From: a virus | Virus record (IMG/VR): IMGVR_UViG_3300025652_000653 | Location: 1-21,718 of that record | Length of the DNA stretch: 21,718 bases | Direction: 5' to 3' (one strand) | In this document: piece after piece, positions 5,761-20,976 of the stretch | Layout: each line of letters starts with the position of its first letter | Position numbering within the stretch: the stretch's first letter is position 1 | Translations under genes and position numbers: made by a program | The notes under the pieces: model-generated | Told to the model about the DNA's origin: nothing | Seen by the model: the letters and a program-made list of their open reading frames with translations, nothing else | The model's database searches: none

Positions 5761-6198
5761 ATGAAAGATTACGTATATTTGGCGGGTCCGATGGAAGACG
5801 CCCAATATGAAGACATGGTGGGGTGGCGCAAATATGCAACTGCTTCGCTACTCACACATGACATCAATTGCCTAGACCCAACCCGACGTGTCTCATACCA
5901 CGAGGAGTTACAAGGGGTTCTAGGTGCTGAGAGGCGCGTTATGAATGTCTCTCGGAGAATTTTTAAGCAGGATATGAAGGACATAGCGTCTAGTCGTGTC
6001 ATTTTAGCAGACATTCGTAGGTCGTCAGGTAGAGGCACAGGGACCAGCATGGAACTTATGTTTGGTCATACTGAGCACAAGATCATGATTATGTGGGGTA
6101 GTAAAGAGGACTTTCCACACCCCTTTATTCAGTCAATGGCAACTGAGATCCACTATGATCTTGATGAAGCTATTGAGGCTGTGAAAGGATACTACTAA
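5761..6198 (+). CDS. Nucleoside 2-deoxyribosyltransferase family protein
   Basis: Members move deoxyribose between bases or hydrolyse deoxynucleoside monophosphates, so this would act in deoxynucleotide salvage or remodelling. The N-terminal YLAGPM (6-11), the central D71-MKDIASSRVILADI segment and GTGTSMELMFGH with E98 fit the family, whose nucleophile is a Glu in a GT..E motif. At 145 aa the length is typical. It sits upstream of a DUF3310 protein and a nucleotidyltransferase, and in the same genome as dCMP deaminase and ribonucleotide reductase. The substrate cannot be told from sequence. A role in base modification or in depleting a signalling nucleotide is also possible. Confidence 0.82.
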   Translation: MKDYVYLAGPMEDAQYEDMVGWRKYATASLLTHDINCLDPTRRVSYHEELQGVLGAERRVMNVSRRIFKQDMKDIASSRVILADIRRSSGRGTGTSMELMFGHTEHKIMIMWGSKEDFPHPFIQSMATEIHYDLDEAIEAVKGYY

Positions 6199-9677: not shown

Positions 9678-10409
9678 ATGTTAACATTGATAGTAGATGG
9701 AGATCCTTTACTATTTAGGTGTGGATGGGGCTCTAAAAGCCTAAACCATGCATTTAAGAAATACGAGAAGGCTCTACAAGATATCAAGAATTGTTGTTTT
9801 AATATTGACAGCACTAAGATTGCGGTATTTGGTGATTCTAACTTTAGGGTGGCATTCTGCCCTAAGTATAAGTCTGGTACCGGGAGAAAGAAGGCTAAAG
9901 AGAAGAACCCTAACTACTTCCTGTTGAGAAAGAAATTAGTTGAGGAGGGGTTAGTCACCCCTGCTCATGGTATGGAAGCTGATGACCTAGTGAGAATCTG
10001 GGCTGAAGAAGAGAAAGCCAAAGGGAATGACTATATAATTGCCAGTATTGATAAAGATCTACACTGTATTGAAGGAACACATTACCTGATTCACAGAGAT
10101 GCTTTCTTACATATGAGTGAGGATGAAGCGGATCTACACTACTGGACACAGGTGCTAACTGGAGACTCTGTGGATGATATCCCCGGCTTATGGATGGTAG
10201 GTCCTGTGAAAGCTGGTAAGATCCTAGAGGGAGCTACCACCAGCAAAGAACGGAAGCAAAGAGTCATCGATGCGTACTATGATGCACATGGAGTTGACTG
10301 GAAGGAAAATATGATGCACACGGGTACTTTGATTCACATCATGAGGACCCCAACAGACATGTTTTCCTTGCAGGATACAGACAAACCGAGTGAGTCGGAG
10401 GATGGGTAA
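9678..10409 (+). CDS. 5'-3' exonuclease, FEN / T7 gp6-like
   Basis: Probably removes RNA primers and degrades host DNA. The flap-nuclease metal ligands are visible in order: D7/D9 in LIVDGDPLLF; E100, D102 and D103 in GMEADDLV; D125 and D127 in ASIDKDLH; and D163, D166 and D167 in TGDSVDDIPG. These are followed by the helix-hairpin-helix-like VGPVKAGKIL. At 243 aa it is smaller than T7 gp6 (about 300). It follows the polymerase and overlaps the start region of the next nuclease gene. The acidic, Ser-rich C-terminus (DKPSESEDG) may be flexible. Confidence 0.9.
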   Translation: MLTLIVDGDPLLFRCGWGSKSLNHAFKKYEKALQDIKNCCFNIDSTKIAVFGDSNFRVAFCPKYKSGTGRKKAKEKNPNYFLLRKKLVEEGLVTPAHGMEADDLVRIWAEEEKAKGNDYIIASIDKDLHCIEGTHYLIHRDAFLHMSEDEADLHYWTQVLTGDSVDDIPGLWMVGPVKAGKILEGATTSKERKQRVIDAYYDAHGVDWKENMMHTGTLIHIMRTPTDMFSLQDTDKPSESEDG

Positions 10410-10914
10410 ATTTACAGCTAAGAAAGATTATATCAAAAGGGACTTAGGTCACTGGGTATATACAGGCGTAAACGTAGACATCTCTCAGTACTTTGGGTTT
10501 GTGTACTTGGTAATTAATAAGACCAAGAACAAGTTCTACATCGGGAAGAAGCAACTCTGGACGTATAAGAAGAACACCTACACTAAGACCGGGAAATCAT
10601 TCTGGAGATCCTACAAGACTTCCTCTGTCCAACTACAATTGGATGAGAAAGAAGGAGATGATATGTCTTACCACATACTAGGTGTGTTTCAGACAAGAGC
10701 TTGGTGCAATTATAGTGAAGCTTGGTTGCAGATGGTATTATGTACTATCACCGATCGGGACACTAGTGGACAGAGAAAATGGTATAATAATCAGGTAGCG
10801 CCTATCCGTTATATACCTAAAGAAGACCATGCCCAACACGAAACGATGAACAAGGCTGCTAAGAAGTCAGAAGCACTTGTCAAGAAGTACGGACATTTAG
10901 AGGTAATAGAATAA
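10402..10914 (+). CDS. GIY-YIG-like nuclease
   Basis: FVYLVINKTKNKFYIGKK (33-50) matches the two-strand GIY...YIG signature. SFWRSY downstream and E106 in NYSEAWLQM could supply the catalytic Arg and Glu. Phages carry related small proteins annotated as putative endonucleases; in this position one might replace T7 endonuclease I in resolving branched DNA, or it could be a homing-type enzyme. The start is unsettled. The ATG at 10402 gives MGKFTAKKDY, but GGAGG abuts it with no spacer. A GTG at 10390 lacks a close Shine-Dalgarno. Translation overlaps the exonuclease stop. The C-terminal 30 residues are basic and helical. Confidence 0.65.
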   Translation: MGKFTAKKDYIKRDLGHWVYTGVNVDISQYFGFVYLVINKTKNKFYIGKKQLWTYKKNTYTKTGKSFWRSYKTSSVQLQLDEKEGDDMSYHILGVFQTRAWCNYSEAWLQMVLCTITDRDTSGQRKWYNNQVAPIRYIPKEDHAQHETMNKAAKKSEALVKKYGHLEVIE

Positions 10915-14747: not shown

Positions 14748-15194
14748 ATGACATACATCTTAGTAGATGATCCTAATAGGCACGAGACCTTCATGCGTGA
14801 CTTAGCTATTCGAATAGCAAAAGAAAGCAAGGATCATAAAACGAAGGTAGGGTGTATAGTATCTAAGGGTACTAACATCCTGTCATATGGTTACAATGGT
14901 ACCCCCTCTGGTTGTGATAACACAATGAGAGATGGTAATGGAAAGACGAACCATAATGTTATACATGCTGAACAAAATGCTATTGCTAAGCTAGCAAAAT
15001 CTACGCTGTCAGGAGAAGACGCGCACATGTATACCACATTGTTGCCTTGTACCACCTGCGCTACCTCGATCATACAAGCCGGTATCGTCCGTGTGTACTT
15101 CGAGGAATTTTACAAGGATCGTTCTGCCCTATCTGTTTTTAAAGAGGCGGGGGTAGCGGTCATCCATTTAAGAAGAAAAGAGAGAGGAGACTGA
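14748..15194 (+). CDS. Deoxycytidylate (dCMP) deaminase
   Basis: It converts dCMP to dUMP, feeding thymidylate synthesis. The zinc site is clear: H73-A-E75 in VIHAEQNAIA and C101/C104 in LLPCTTCATSI. GYNGTPSGCDN is the substrate-side segment typical of phage and cellular dCMP deaminases, and the 148-aa length is normal. It stands directly before the ribonucleotide reductase genes, forming a deoxynucleotide supply block. No thymidylate synthase is seen in the window. The start ATG at 14748 has GAGAG about 12 bases upstream, a weak site. A general cytidine/deoxycytidylate deaminase is the only real alternative. Confidence 0.92.
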   Translation: MTYILVDDPNRHETFMRDLAIRIAKESKDHKTKVGCIVSKGTNILSYGYNGTPSGCDNTMRDGNGKTNHNVIHAEQNAIAKLAKSTLSGEDAHMYTTLLPCTTCATSIIQAGIVRVYFEEFYKDRSALSVFKEAGVAVIHLRRKERGD

Positions 15195-15197
15195 TTT

Positions 15198-17186
15198 TTG
15201 AAATGTTATGGAATAGTTATCAATCATAAGAGGGATGATAGACTTACAGAACAGGCACTAAAACTACTGAAAAGTTATTATCTGGAAAAAGAGGAGACTT
15301 CCCCGCAAGAAGCGTTTGCAAGAGCAGCTGTTGCTTATAGTGGTGGAGACATGGGACTAGCTCAACGGATCTACAATTATGTATCCGAAGGCTGGTTTAT
15401 GTTTTCGTCACCAATCCTGAGCAACGCACCTAAGCCGGAAGAGAAACATGTAGGTCTCCCTATTAGTTGCTTTTTGTCTTATGTACCAGATACAGTAGGA
15501 GGATTGGCTAAGCACCACGAAGAAACCGCTTGGTTATCTGTTAAAGGGGGAGGTGTAGGTGGGCATTGGGCTGACGTAAGAGGTATTACTGAAAAGTCAC
15601 CGGGAGTTCTCCCGATGCTTAAAGTATCTGACGCTCAAATGACCGCTTTCAAACAAGGTAGAACTCGCAAGGGTTCTTACGCAGCCTACCTAGATATTGA
15701 TCACCCAGATATCATTGAGTTTATTAATTTTAAGGTACCAACAGGCGGTGACAGCAACCGGAAGTGTTTCAACTTGTTTAACGCTGTGAACCTTACTGAT
15801 GCCTTTATGCGAGCGGTACTAGATAATGCAGACTGGGAACTAAAATGTCCCCACACAGGGACCGTAACTGATACGCTACGTGCGAGAAACATCTGGGAAC
15901 GCTTACTGGAGGTTCGTTTCAGAACAGGGTCACCCTACCTCAACTTTATTGACACAGCTAATAAGGCACTACCTGATTACCAGAAGGCTATGGGACTTAA
16001 GGTACACGGTTCTAACTTGTGTAATGAGATACACTTAGCAACTAGTGAAGACCGTACAGCTGTATGTTGTTTGTCTTCTGTTAATCTAGAGCACTATCCT
16101 CTGTGGAAAGAGACAACCATGGTACAAGACCTCATTGAGTTTCTTGATAATGTGCTACAAGCTTTTGTGGACAATGCACCAGAGGAATTGAGCAAAGCCA
16201 AGTATAGTGCCATGAGGGAACGCTCTCTAGGATTAGGCGCTATGGGTTTTCACAGCTTGTTGATGAGTAAGAATATCGCTTGGGAAAGCCGTGAAGCTGC
16301 TGACCTTAATCGTGAGGTATTCGAATTTATTTCGGAAGGAGCTAAGGCATCTACGAGGAAGTTGGCGGTGTTGAAAGGAGTGGCTCCTGATGCGGCTGGT
16401 TATTCCAAAGTACGTAACGCTCACTTGCTGGCGATAGCTCCCAATGCAAACAGCAGTATCCTCTGTGGTACTAGTGCAAGTATTGAGCCTATTAAGGCAA
16501 ATGTATACACACACCGTACTAGGGCAGGCGCGGATGTCATTAAGATACCTCATCTAGTGAACTTACTAGAGTCATTAGGTAAGAATACTGAGGAAGAATG
16601 GGTATCTATAATGCAGAACGAGGGAAGTGTTCAACATCTAGACTACCTTACGGATCACCAGAAAGGTGTGTTCAAGACCTCCTTCGAGATAGATCAACTA
16701 TGGGTAGTTAAACATGCCGCCGATAGACAAGAGTTTATCTGTCAAGGACAGTCTGTTAACCTGTTCTTTCCTTCAGGATCAGACAGAAAGTATGTTAACA
16801 AAGTACACCTACAAGCTTGGAAATCGGGACTTAAAGGTTTGTACTATCTTCGAACAACAGCGGGAAGAACTGCTGATAAGGTAGGACAATCCGTGGAACG
16901 TCATGCGCTAAAAGATGATGAGGACTATACCGTTGTGTATGGTAAAGCAGACTGTCCTTGGTGTAAGAAGGCATGTGATTTGTTCTCTGAACGAGGTATG
17001 GTATATATGTACATAGACATCGGTGTTGCCGGTGTGACTGCGGCAGACGTTACTGGACGTGATGTAACTACAGTTCCTCAAATTTACGTTGGGGGCAAAT
17101 ACATTGAGAATGGATATCAAGGCCTCGTAGAATTCTTAGGGGAAGATCTCGAAGATGATGAGGAGTGTGTGGCATGTCAGGGATAG
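15198..17186 (+). CDS. nrdA: Class I ribonucleotide reductase large subunit fused to glutaredoxin
   Basis: It reduces ribonucleotides to deoxyribonucleotides with the small subunit encoded next. The active site is complete: C91 (PISCFLS), N273/C275/E277 (GSNLCNEI), a second redox Cys at 290/291 (AVCCLSSVNL), and the radical-path tyrosines Y549-Y550 (GLYYLRTT). Residues about 575-650 are a glutaredoxin domain with C586-P-W-C589 and cis-Pro P627 (TTVPQIYVGG). After it comes a tail ending EECVACQG (C657, C660), which resembles the redox-shuttle Cys pair of class I enzymes. The N-terminus starts straight at the catalytic region, with no room for an ATP-cone, so dATP shut-off is probably absent. 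The start is TTG at 15198, with AGAGGAG upstream. Confidence 0.93.
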   Translation: MKCYGIVINHKRDDRLTEQALKLLKSYYLEKEETSPQEAFARAAVAYSGGDMGLAQRIYNYVSEGWFMFSSPILSNAPKPEEKHVGLPISCFLSYVPDTVGGLAKHHEETAWLSVKGGGVGGHWADVRGITEKSPGVLPMLKVSDAQMTAFKQGRTRKGSYAAYLDIDHPDIIEFINFKVPTGGDSNRKCFNLFNAVNLTDAFMRAVLDNADWELKCPHTGTVTDTLRARNIWERLLEVRFRTGSPYLNFIDTANKALPDYQKAMGLKVHGSNLCNEIHLATSEDRTAVCCLSSVNLEHYPLWKETTMVQDLIEFLDNVLQAFVDNAPEELSKAKYSAMRERSLGLGAMGFHSLLMSKNIAWESREAADLNREVFEFISEGAKASTRKLAVLKGVAPDAAGYSKVRNAHLLAIAPNANSSILCGTSASIEPIKANVYTHRTRAGADVIKIPHLVNLLESLGKNTEEEWVSIMQNEGSVQHLDYLTDHQKGVFKTSFEIDQLWVVKHAADRQEFICQGQSVNLFFPSGSDRKYVNKVHLQAWKSGLKGLYYLRTTAGRTADKVGQSVERHALKDDEDYTVVYGKADCPWCKKACDLFSERGMVYMYIDIGVAGVTAADVTGRDVTTVPQIYVGGKYIENGYQGLVEFLGEDLEDDEECVACQG

Positions 17187-17204: not shown

Positions 17205-18149
17205 ATGTCAGTAGTTGAAGCAAGCCTTGTTTTTAAGCCGTTTAAGTACGGTTGGGCAGTAGAAAAAGCTGTAGAGCATGAGAAAATGCACTGGCATGAA
17301 GGAGAATGTAAGCTCCAAGAAGATTTAGCCCAGTGGAAAATGGACCTAAATGATAATGAGAAGAACCACATCACACAGATATTACGACTGTTTACTCAGT
17401 CAGATGTTGTTGTGGCTGGTAACTATCTAGATCACTATTTGCCTTGTTTCAAGAATAACGAAATAAGAGCTATGTTATCTAGTTTCTCCAGCAGAGAATT
17501 TGTACATCAGAGAGCCTATGCACTCCTGAATGACACTCTAGGACTACCCGAAGAGGAGTTCTCTGCTTTCTTAGATTATGAGGAAATGAGAGATAAGGTT
17601 GATTTCATGGTAGATATCAACACTAAGAGTCACTCAGGACTTGCTAGCGCCGTAGCTAGGAGTGCTATTAACGAGGGTATGAGTCTGTTCTCTGCTTTCG
17701 TTATGCTCATAAATTACTCTCGTTTCGGTAAGATGCGAGGAATGTGCGAAATCGTACAATGGTCGCTACGAGATGAATCTCTCCACTGTGAAGGAATGAC
17801 TAAGCTTTTTAGAACTTACTGTGAAGAACACCCTAGGATTGTCAATGACTCTTTTAAGAAAGAGATATACGATATGGTGAGAGAAGCAGTAGCTCTGGAA
17901 GACAAGGTCATTGACTTAGCGTATGAAATGGGACCTATAGAAGGTCTTAAGGCAGAAGAGGTCAAGACATATATCAGGTTTATCGCAGATAGACGTTTGA
18001 TTGAGCTTGGACTTAAAGCAAACTATAAACAGAAAACAAACCCCTTGCCTTGGCTAGAACCACTAATGACTACCTCTCACGACAATTTCTTTGAGACAAC
18101 CGTCACAGAGTATAGTGCAGATGGACTAGCTGGTGAATGGGAATATTGA
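17205..18149 (+). CDS. nrdB: Class I ribonucleotide reductase small subunit
   Basis: It houses the di-metal/tyrosyl radical cofactor for the large subunit. All ligands are visible at the expected spacing: D67, E98 and H101 (SSREFVHQRAY), E157 (INEGMSLF), and E191 and H194 (LRDESLHCEG). Radical tyrosine Y105 sits four residues after H101, so this looks like a Tyr-radical enzyme rather than a Tyr-less subclass. The C-terminus ends in an acidic aromatic peptide (LAGEWEY), as expected for docking to the large subunit. At 314 aa it is compact but complete. It starts 18 bases after the large-subunit stop behind AAGAGGAG and is followed by a strong terminator. Confidence 0.95.
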   Translation: MSVVEASLVFKPFKYGWAVEKAVEHEKMHWHEGECKLQEDLAQWKMDLNDNEKNHITQILRLFTQSDVVVAGNYLDHYLPCFKNNEIRAMLSSFSSREFVHQRAYALLNDTLGLPEEEFSAFLDYEEMRDKVDFMVDINTKSHSGLASAVARSAINEGMSLFSAFVMLINYSRFGKMRGMCEIVQWSLRDESLHCEGMTKLFRTYCEEHPRIVNDSFKKEIYDMVREAVALEDKVIDLAYEMGPIEGLKAEEVKTYIRFIADRRLIELGLKANYKQKTNPLPWLEPLMTTSHDNFFETTVTEYSADGLAGEWEY

Positions 18150-18164
18150 TAAGAGACTTAGAGG

Positions 18165-18191
18165 ACCCCTAACAATAGTTAGGGGTTTTTT
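18165..18191 (+). terminator. Rho-independent terminator after the reductase genes
   Basis: A perfect 9-bp stem (ACCCCTAAC with GTTAGGGGT) and an AATA loop are followed by six T residues. It lies 15 bases after the small-subunit stop codon and closes the replication/nucleotide block before the MoxR/VWA module. Confidence 0.92.
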
Positions 18192-18217
18192 AAGCAACCC
18201 CGCACGACTCTTTTCCC

Positions 18218-18537: not shown

Positions 18538-19572
18538 ATGAATATTTCTAATGCAGTAGAAGTCGTAGCCCAGATGCTTCAACATAACTTGAACCTTCCA
18601 AAGAACTCTTCCGATGCCGCTTACCTTATCCCTATGTTGTGGTCTCTCCCCGGTGAGGGAAAAACTACAGCGGTGTGTGACTTGGCTGACTCACTTCAAT
18701 GGGACATCCGGACGGTGATTGTAGCCCAGTACGATGCAGGTGAGCTCGGTGGATTTCCGGTTATCGATCGGGAAAACGAACAGTACGTTCGGTACGCGCC
18801 GTTCTTCATGAAGGGCTTTGATAAGAAAAAGCCTACTATCTTGTTCTTGGATGAGATGCCTCAAGCTGGTACCGCTAACTTGAACGTATGCGCTCAGCTG
18901 ATTAACGAACGCCGTATTGGTGAGCATATCCTACCTGATAACGTATTCGTTGTAGCCGCAGGAAACCCAATGTCTGCTCGTGCTGGTACGACCCAGCTTC
19001 CTTCTCACTTGAAGGATCGGTTGACTCACTTGGATATCGAAACGGATCATGTGGCTTTTCGTGAGTATGCTCTGCAAAATAACTTTGCACCAGAGGTAAC
19101 GTCATTCATTAATGATCGTCCTGAGTACCTCCAGAAGTTTGATGCAAATCAGAACGCTTGCCCCTCACCTCGCTCTTGGGAACGGGTTAACTCAATCTTG
19201 GAACTCAACTTGGACTTGGGTCTGAGCCGGGGCACTCTGATGGGTCAGATTGGTGAAGCAGCGGTAACTGATTTCTTCGGTTACATGCGGATGTACAATG
19301 AGCTCCCAGACGTTCTTAACGAGATCTTCCCTAACCCAGAGAGTGCGGTTATCCCCGATGCCCCTGATGTTCTTTATGCGCTGTGCTCAAATATGTCCCA
19401 CAAGGTGACTGCGGAGACTGCGGAGGCGCTGGTTACTTACATTCGTCGTTTTACTAACAAAGAGTTTGCAGCTTTCTGTATCCGTGAGACAATTGCGCGT
19501 TCGCCTGAACTCAAGAAGTCTAAAGCTATTAGCTCTTGGGTTGTAACGGATGGTCGCGATTTGCTCTTGTAG
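18538..19572 (+). CDS. MoxR-like AAA+ ATPase
   Basis: MoxR-type ATPases work with VWA-domain partners to remodel or activate protein complexes. Here Walker A is SLPGEGKTT (about 36-44), Walker B is ILFLDEMPQ (about 101-109), and sensor 1 is AAGNP, followed by HLKDRLTHLDI, where an arginine finger would lie. The ELGGFP segment after the Walker A helix and the overall 344-aa length fit the family. The HExxH/VWA protein that usually partners such ATPases is two genes downstream. I found no TTA leucine codon and very few CTA codons in this frame, unlike the rest of the window. That suggests selection for high expression or a separate origin. Confidence 0.88.
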   Translation: MNISNAVEVVAQMLQHNLNLPKNSSDAAYLIPMLWSLPGEGKTTAVCDLADSLQWDIRTVIVAQYDAGELGGFPVIDRENEQYVRYAPFFMKGFDKKKPTILFLDEMPQAGTANLNVCAQLINERRIGEHILPDNVFVVAAGNPMSARAGTTQLPSHLKDRLTHLDIETDHVAFREYALQNNFAPEVTSFINDRPEYLQKFDANQNACPSPRSWERVNSILELNLDLGLSRGTLMGQIGEAAVTDFFGYMRMYNELPDVLNEIFPNPESAVIPDAPDVLYALCSNMSHKVTAETAEALVTYIRRFTNKEFAAFCIRETIARSPELKKSKAISSWVVTDGRDLLL

Positions 19573-19580
19573 GGGGTTCG

Positions 19581-19778
19581 ATGCTTAACCCTAGATTAAT
19601 AAATGTAGAGATTCTGGATTTCTCTAGGGGGACTATACTCCCCCTTAATAGTCAGAAATTCTTCGTCGCAATGGAAAGGGGGCCCGGAATTTTCCGGGTC
19701 AACGATGGTACATATGATTTCACATTCACTGAGAGTGAACTCTCGGATACTGGGTGGATTAGGAGAATAGATGGATAG
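19581..19778 (+). CDS. Small hypothetical protein, 65 aa, hairpin-rich gene
   Basis: I do not recognise it. AGGGGG at 19571-19576 places the start at the ATG at 19581, though the frame is open into the MoxR gene. Its stop overlaps the next ATG (ATGGATAG). The product looks like a small beta domain (INVEILDFSRG, KFFVAMERGPGIFRVND, TYDFTFTES). The gene contains at least three inverted repeats. As it sits between the ATPase and the VWA protein and is coupled to the latter, it may belong to the same complex. Confidence 0.65.
   Translation: MLNPRLINVEILDFSRGTILPLNSQKFFVAMERGPGIFRVNDGTYDFTFTESELSDTGWIRRIDG
19626..19758. repeat. Three inverted repeats clustered inside a small gene
   Basis: First, AGGGGGA and TCCCCCT around a 6-base loop (19626-19645). 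Second, CCCGGAA-TT-TTCCGGG (19683-19698), extendable by two pairs. Third, overlapping palindromes near 19735-19745, TTCACT-GAG-AGTGAA and GAGAGT-GA-ACTCTC. None is followed by a T-run, so they are not simple terminators. Confidence 0.6.
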
Positions 19779-20976
19779 CCAACTAAAAGTAAGCAGGGCT
19801 GTAACTAACCTTGCATTTTCGGAACCGTTTTTCGGGTCATGTCTATTGCAGTTAGCCGTACAACCTAGTGAGTTGGTACCTACGATGGGTACTGATGGGT
19901 TTAACGTTTTCTGGAATGACGACTTTGTGGCAGGTATTACAGAGGAGGAAACTAGGGGCGTTCTGGCTCATGAAGTGTTACACGTGATCTTTAAACACTG
20001 TGCCATGATGGAGGGAAAAGATCCTAAGTTGTGTAATGTGGCTATGGACTGGGCTATTAACCTTATACTCAGAGAGGCGCATTTTAGACTACCCGAAGGG
20101 GCCTTGTTCGACCCTTCTAAGAAGACAGCAGGTTGGGCTTGGGAAGAGATCTACCGGTATTTAGACAACATCCAGAAAGACCAGCCGGATGTTTTTAAAT
20201 ACACCCCGGGTAATGGCGGAGTACAACCTAGTGAAGATATGAAGCAGAAAATCAAAGAGCAGATTTCTAATTCTGAAGAACACGTGCAAAAAGGTGGTGG
20301 TCAGTCAGCTTCAGAAAGGGAAGAGTACGGAGCCAAGATTGATGATATGGTGATCAAAGCGTCTAACGCTGCTGGTTCATCTGGTAAGGGCTCTATACCG
20401 GGTGATATCAAGCGACGTATCAAGGATATACGGGAGCCTAAGATTCATTGGGCTGAACTGCTTCACAAAGAAGTTAAAAGCAAATACCCTATGGACTTCA
20501 CTTTCCGTAAGCCTAATCGTAAATTCTTAGGGGACGACCTCTATCTCCCTTCAATGGATGGAGAGGAGGTAGGACCAATCGTGATTGGTTTTGATAGCTC
20601 TGGGTCAGTTACGGAGGAAGAGACTAGGGCGTTTATCGGAGAAGCTAACTCTATCATCAATGATATCAAGCCTAGTTGCGTCTACTTGATGTCTGCGGAT
20701 TATAGGGTTGCTAACGTAGAGAAGTACGGGCAAGACGCTTGGTTTGATTACAGCACCTTTGAAACTGTGGGAGGGGGAGGTACCTCGTTCCAACCTGTGT
20801 TCCAATACGTGGAAGAACACCAAATCGAGCCAGACCAGCTGATTTACTTCTCTGACATGTGTGTCAGTAGGCATGACTACCCAAGTAAAGCCCCTCTATA
20901 CCCTGTGATATTTGTGGGCACACGAAATACGAAAGGTAACAACCCTTTCGGTACTTATATTAAATTGGAGGTATAA
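19771..20976 (+). CDS. Predicted metallopeptidase-like plus VWA protein (COG3864/DUF2201-type)
   Basis: The N-terminal domain carries HEVLH (67-71) within GVLAHEVLHVIFKH, a HExxH zinc-protease-like motif. CNVAMDWAIN (D93) could supply a third ligand. A linker rich in Gly, Ser and charged residues (about 145-215) leads to a VWA domain. Its metal-adhesion site is complete: DSSGS (275-279), T338 in GGGGTSF and D362 in YFSDM. This two-domain layout is that of the COG3864/DUF2201 proteins that pair with MoxR ATPases in bacteria. Whether the HExxH site cuts peptides is unknown. The start overlaps the previous stop, and the next gene starts in its stop (TAATG). At 401 aa it appears full length. Confidence 0.85.
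   Translation: MDSQLKVSRAVTNLAFSEPFFGSCLLQLAVQPSELVPTMGTDGFNVFWNDDFVAGITEEETRGVLAHEVLHVIFKHCAMMEGKDPKLCNVAMDWAINLILREAHFRLPEGALFDPSKKTAGWAWEEIYRYLDNIQKDQPDVFKYTPGNGGVQPSEDMKQKIKEQISNSEEHVQKGGGQSASEREEYGAKIDDMVIKASNAAGSSGKGSIPGDIKRRIKDIREPKIHWAELLHKEVKSKYPMDFTFRKPNRKFLGDDLYLPSMDGEEVGPIVIGFDSSGSVTEEETRAFIGEANSIINDIKPSCVYLMSADYRVANVEKYGQDAWFDYSTFETVGGGGTSFQPVFQYVEEHQIEPDQLIYFSDMCVSRHDYPSKAPLYPVIFVGTRNTKGNNPFGTYIKLEV

Follow-up and report, generated by a model that had tools for sequence, protein, structure and literature searches.

Where do phages that infect small hosts get the electrons that making dNTPs requires? The question is raised by a marine phage record whose whole 21,718-nucleotide stretch was analyzed here (the window), in which the catalytic subunit of a class I ribonucleotide reductase (RNR) carries a glutaredoxin (Grx) between its catalytic core and its redox-active C-terminal tail (15198 to 17186, plus strand). 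The window encodes a single-subunit T7-like RNA polymerase, DNA polymerase A, a primase-helicase, SSB, and a nucleotide block. Among cultured phages, its RNA polymerase is nearest to that of DSS3_VP1/PM1 and its DNA polymerase to that of Pelagibacter phage Kolga, with 35 to 38% identity. Within the dNTP-supply block, all on the plus strand, a dCMP deaminase gene (14748 to 15194; PF00383) lies directly upstream of nrdA, a synteny maintained in four related contigs (L005, L025, L030, and L036), and nrdB (17205 to 18149; PF00268), encoding the 314-aa radical-generating subunit, starts 18 nt after the nrdA stop. An inverted repeat 3' of nrdB forms a hairpin followed by a T-run (18157 to 18194, plus strand) and is a probable intrinsic terminator; it was not among the calls of a consensus promoter/terminator scan of the window, which was uninformative.

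The nrdA frame runs from a TTG start at 15198, with GAGGAG ahead of it, to a TAG ending at 17186, and encodes 662 aa. Pfam places Ribonuc_red_lgN at residues 15 to 80, lgC from residue 90, and Glutaredoxin at residues 579 to 636 (E = 6e-11), and residues 1 to 553 (15198 to 16856, plus strand; PF00317 and PF02867) make up the class I alpha catalytic core, which matches NCBIfam PRK09102 with 727 bits, over the curated cutoff. Alignment to solved RNRs identifies C91, C275/E277, and C290 as known catalytic or redox positions, and C91, N273, C275, E277, C290, C291, Y549, and Y550 are invariant across 52 homologues of the same architecture. An earlier reading made from the sequence alone (the sequence-only reading) had named the catalytic, Grx, and tail motif residues correctly; it had offered C290 and C291 together, and while both are invariant, only C290 is the redox partner of C91. 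Everything expected of a class I NrdA is thus found: the redox Cys pair, the radical Cys, the N/E residues, the YY pair, the C-terminal Cys pair, and an NrdB partner. The best fold match of the core is 6dqw (TM 0.89 by target length), and Foldseek groups it with the class Id alpha subunits of Flavobacterium johnsoniae (6dqw) and Actinobacillus ureae (6dqx), which also match it best by sequence, are likewise compact, have no ATP-cone, and share the CCLSS active-site motif. Unlike the window protein, those subunits have no Grx; class Id is defined by a mixed-valent dimanganese NrdB, and the likeness holds for the alpha subunit only. No ATP-cone was detected by Pfam in the 662-aa protein, as the sequence-only reading had proposed. 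Its conclusion that the enzyme is unregulated is not supported, since the missing ATP-cone is common to close Grx-less relatives (e.g., L104) and to class Id enzymes (PMC9531940) and is ordinary for this family.

Behind the core, the chain continues as linker, folded domain, linker, and tail. The first linker spans residues 554 to 574 (16857 to 16919, plus strand), and an AF2 model built from 52 sequences (mean pLDDT 78, pTM 0.75) gives pLDDT values below 50 at residues 553 to 574, consistent with a flexible segment. The Grx follows at residues ~575 to 648 (16920 to 17141, plus strand; PF00462, E = 6e-11), with CPWC at residues 586 to 589 and TVP at residues 625 to 627, and is predicted to be folded (pLDDT ~80 to 91). 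A second linker and the terminal redox tail occupy residues 649 to 662 (17142 to 17183, plus strand), with pLDDT again below 50 at residues 653 to 656, and the chain ends in EECVACQG (C657 and C660). Both the CPxC motif and the cis-Pro TVP motif in a Trx fold, as expected of a glutaredoxin, are present by sequence and AF2 prediction, and C586, P587, C589, P627, C657, C660, and G662 are invariant across the 52 homologues. Among solved structures, the domain is most closely related to E. coli glutaredoxin 1 (1ego/1qfn; E = 1e-9). Entry 1qfn, in which E. coli Grx1 is trapped on the RNR tail peptide, would directly model the Grx-tail step proposed below. We call the domain GrxA-like rather than GrxA because it scores 41.7 bits against PRK11200, under the curated GrxA cutoff of 84 bits. 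Its GSH-binding turn (residues 637 to 639; 17106 to 17114) reads ENG (N638) with a one-residue insertion, versus GG in 51 of 52 aligned sequences, and in the Grx tree the domain sits on a longer branch; the GSH affinity of the window Grx could therefore differ from that of its relatives.

To ask how widespread this order is, an alignment of the Grx and tail from five proteins was searched against IMG/VR, yielding at least 80 full-length matches, and a search with a full-length alignment added more. Among the matches listed, mostly IMG/VR contigs, 104 of 145 distinct NrdA ORFs with a complete C-terminal end show the core-Grx-tail order; the queries were themselves Grx bearing, and these counts are not prevalences. 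The same order recurs in annotated Phage C48C1, PhiW-14, and Acinetobacter phages SH-Ab 15599 and nACB2. The sequence-only reading had placed a Grx between the catalytic core and a CxxC tail and proposed a search for homologues of identical domain order: Pfam, the single open frame, and the order conserved in 104 NrdA proteins bear out the placement, and the search returned more than 100 such homologues from IMG/VR and annotated phages. A chance order is excluded because 104 distinct NrdA proteins share it, and, judged from these sequences, the domain order is genuine and widely found among ocean phages. All 104 Grx-bearing NrdA proteins listed keep the CPxC motif and the C-terminal CxxC, and 103 keep the final Gly (tail consensus ECxACEG), while the stretch between Grx and tail varies, a pattern that supports strong purifying selection on the CxxC tail beside a variable linker.

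The partner subunit in the window carries neither a Grx nor an ATP-cone. It has the ligand and radical motifs (E98..H101...Y105, NEG, and an RDE..H type motif), and its best NCBIfam match is the Grx::NrdB model PRK12759, of which only the NrdB part is covered (positions 94 to 405). Where a Grx-bearing NrdA has its NrdB in view, the NrdB is Grx free in 103 of 103 cases among the matches listed, and where the NrdA is Grx-less, an N-terminal Grx stands on the NrdB in 12 of 39 (Fisher p = 4e-8 for this exclusivity, a value not corrected for relatedness and resting on phylogenetically clumped counts). Judging by these pairings, either RNR subunit may hold the Grx, with both doing so in 0 sampled cases. 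Methylophilales phage Melnitz and contig L007 illustrate the alternative placement, with an nrdA ending in ECVACQG and grx::nrdB next to it. In L007 (5731 to 5752), the nrdA stop codon overlaps the start of the grx::nrdB frame, making translational coupling possible. No standalone Grx was seen between nrdA and nrdB in the longest gap ORFs of the nearest Grx-less relatives.

What does the Grx do in this position? Domain order, conservation, exclusivity, phylogeny, and the predicted fold and disorder make it probable that the window protein is a phage class I alpha subunit with its own RNR-dedicated Grx as a tethered reductant of the tail; its electron flow, its reach in cis or in trans, and its benefit we infer as follows. 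In each turnover, the terminal C657-C660 pair would reduce the C91-C290 disulfide in the barrel, by homology with standard class I chemistry, and NrdB would supply the radical. The oxidized tail would next be reduced by C586/C589 of the attached Grx, which in turn would be recharged by glutathione and host glutathione reductase. The Grx would ride on a flexible linker of ~20 residues with the tail ~10 residues further on; because these tethers are flexible, the Grx would always be close to its substrate, whichever redoxins the host has. To call such an enzyme "self-sufficient," as the sequence-only reading did, is too strong, since NrdB, GSH, and glutathione reductase would still be required, and no glutathione reductase gene was seen in the window.

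The transfer from Grx to tail could be intrachain, or it could cross from one alpha subunit of the dimer to the other. A variant in which it is interchain only, the Grx of one alpha reducing the tail of its partner so that the tether raises local concentration and no single chain holds the full relay, is a serious contender that we place somewhat short of even chances. It draws on the finding that electrons can pass between subunits in a class II RNR whose redox domain is C-terminal (PMC5704485), and only ~10 residues separate the Grx C-terminal helix from C657, so self-reduction may be strained; the low-confidence AF2 linkers, however, leave transfer in cis possible. We consider it unlikely that host thioredoxin reduces the tail while the Grx has another job, such as deglutathionylation, enzyme protection, or NrdB docking. 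Among the matches listed, 27 of 41 close Grx-less relatives have a Grx-less NrdB too, so a redoxin from elsewhere can evidently serve, but the Grx here is GrxA-like, is placed on the tail itself, keeps both Cys in 104 of 104 proteins, and is never joined by a second Grx on NrdB. Direct reduction of the active site by the Grx, with the terminal CxxC left as a relic, is very improbable, given tail cysteines kept in 104 of 104 proteins next to a freely varying linker. An assembly or frame artefact can be set aside as wholly implausible: a second IMG/VR contig of the same virus (L004) matches at 9932 of 9986 nt (99.5%) over ~10 kb spanning the nrdA locus, and more than 100 homologues as well as complete phage genomes share the order.

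A tethered reductant of this kind has precedents on the other subunit. Grx::NrdB fusions occur in Facklamia ignava, Francisella, and vibrio phages, and experiments on the F. ignava protein have shown that the fused Grx, using GSH, reduces the RNR of which it is part (PMC6187632). As in those proteins and in the Melnitz phages and L007 to L013, a reductant, presumably GSH dependent, is covalently part of the RNR holoenzyme in the window. The Grx of Grx::NrdB is, however, N-terminal on the radical subunit (together with an ATP-cone in F. ignava), whereas here it lies within the catalytic subunit immediately before the tail, its presumed substrate, and belongs by sequence to another Grx group. 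The main text of PMC6187632 reports Grx fusions to NrdA, NrdB, NrdD, and NrdJ, including grx::nrdA in two viruses, which resemble the window protein in joining a viral Grx to the catalytic subunit and whose domain order that text does not give. Class II NrdJ with a C-terminal cysteine-rich zinc domain (PMC5704485) likewise has an extra turnover-mediating redox domain near its C-terminus; unlike the window Grx, that domain is a zinc/cysteine array, and it took no electrons from Grx or Trx.

The exact core-Grx-CxxC order, paired with a Grx-less NrdB, is found in PhiW-14, SH-Ab 15599, nACB2, and C48C1, where NrdA is annotated plainly as RNR alpha; identity to the window NrdA is 43% for Delftia phage PhiW-14 and 59% for C48C1. 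The Acinetobacter phage nrdA genes (L017, 1760 to 4381; L018, 1772 to 4390) additionally match an intein splicing domain within the barrel region, weakly in L017. A different layout is seen in the NrdA of Pseudoalteromonas phage PH357 (L019, 3992 to 7480), with an N-terminal Grx and ATP-cone, a LAGLIDADG intein, and a CxxxxC tail, and a third placement of the domain in the NrdB of Shewanella phage 1/4 (L020, 2876 to 4222), where the Grx is C-terminal. The sequence-only reading would have yielded to many described reductases of this order: the sequences are indeed many, but no paper describing the core-Grx-tail layout was found in literature outside subscription, and the main text of PMC9669993, on RNR extensions, makes no mention of glutaredoxin. 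Grx-RNR fusions are thus already known, and a Grx directly before the NrdA tail is, as far as found, an apparently undescribed layout, which corrects the view of such fusions as mainly an NrdB feature. An alpha subunit so widespread with a reductant on its tail offers a simple system in which to ask whether a tether replaces host redoxins, whether it acts in cis or in trans, and how a folded domain between barrel and tail avoids blocking turnover.

Where did the Grx come from? In the catalytic-core tree the Grx label needs four changes, three of them forced by well-supported branches, and these counts carry no direction. A constraint uniting the Grx-bearing cores in one clade is rejected (AU p = 4e-7), and with it a single origin of the Grx together with the core; on this tree, NrdA cores of no fewer than three distinct lineages bear the module. 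The NrdA-internal Grx domains themselves form one group (SH-aLRT 95; 75 columns, weakly resolved inside), apart from NrdB-type and standalone Grx. A recent move from a neighboring Grx::NrdB, which the L007 layout invites, is rejected on this separate grouping of NrdB-type and NrdA-type Grx. The window core clusters with L036, L005, L030, and L025 beside Grx-less L105 and L106 (SH-aLRT 99 for all seven). The window nrdB agrees with this placement, being 74 to 77% identical both to its Grx-bearing neighbors and to Grx-less L104 and L105 and 59% identical to the large Grx-bearing C48C1 clade. These trees are most simply read as a Grx module that arose once and then either passed from core to core or was lost repeatedly. 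A comparison of C-terminal ends sets ...ALKDFEDDEECISCQG in Grx-less L116 against ...ALKDDED-[Grx]-EDLEDDEECVACQG in the window, and the module would have entered an ordinary NrdA in the linker that precedes the tail. More tentatively still, and with the balance of our judgment leaning against it, the Grx and the ECxACEG tail might form a transferable redox cassette that phages have exchanged, on three or more occasions and onto separate cores, through recombination at the C-terminal end of NrdA; the resulting alpha subunits would receive electrons in cis from the Grx they carry and would not depend on host thioredoxins. A cellular origin was rejected. A genome scan gave one full-length match, L179 from a Sphingobacteriales MAG, and because the L179 core falls within the phage sequences on the tree, we take it to be a phage contig.

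Several other genes of the window deserve mention. A weak match to nucleoside 2-deoxyribosyltransferase (5761 to 6198) is possibly a further nucleotide-salvage gene, and a SegE-like GIY-YIG endonuclease (10390 to 10914) is flanked by a 5'-3' exonuclease and the primase-helicase. At 18538 to 20976, a MoxR-type AAA ATPase is followed by a VWA/DUF2201 metallopeptidase-like protein, for which the PHROG label "HNH endonuclease" conflicts with Pfam DUF2201 and looks wrong.
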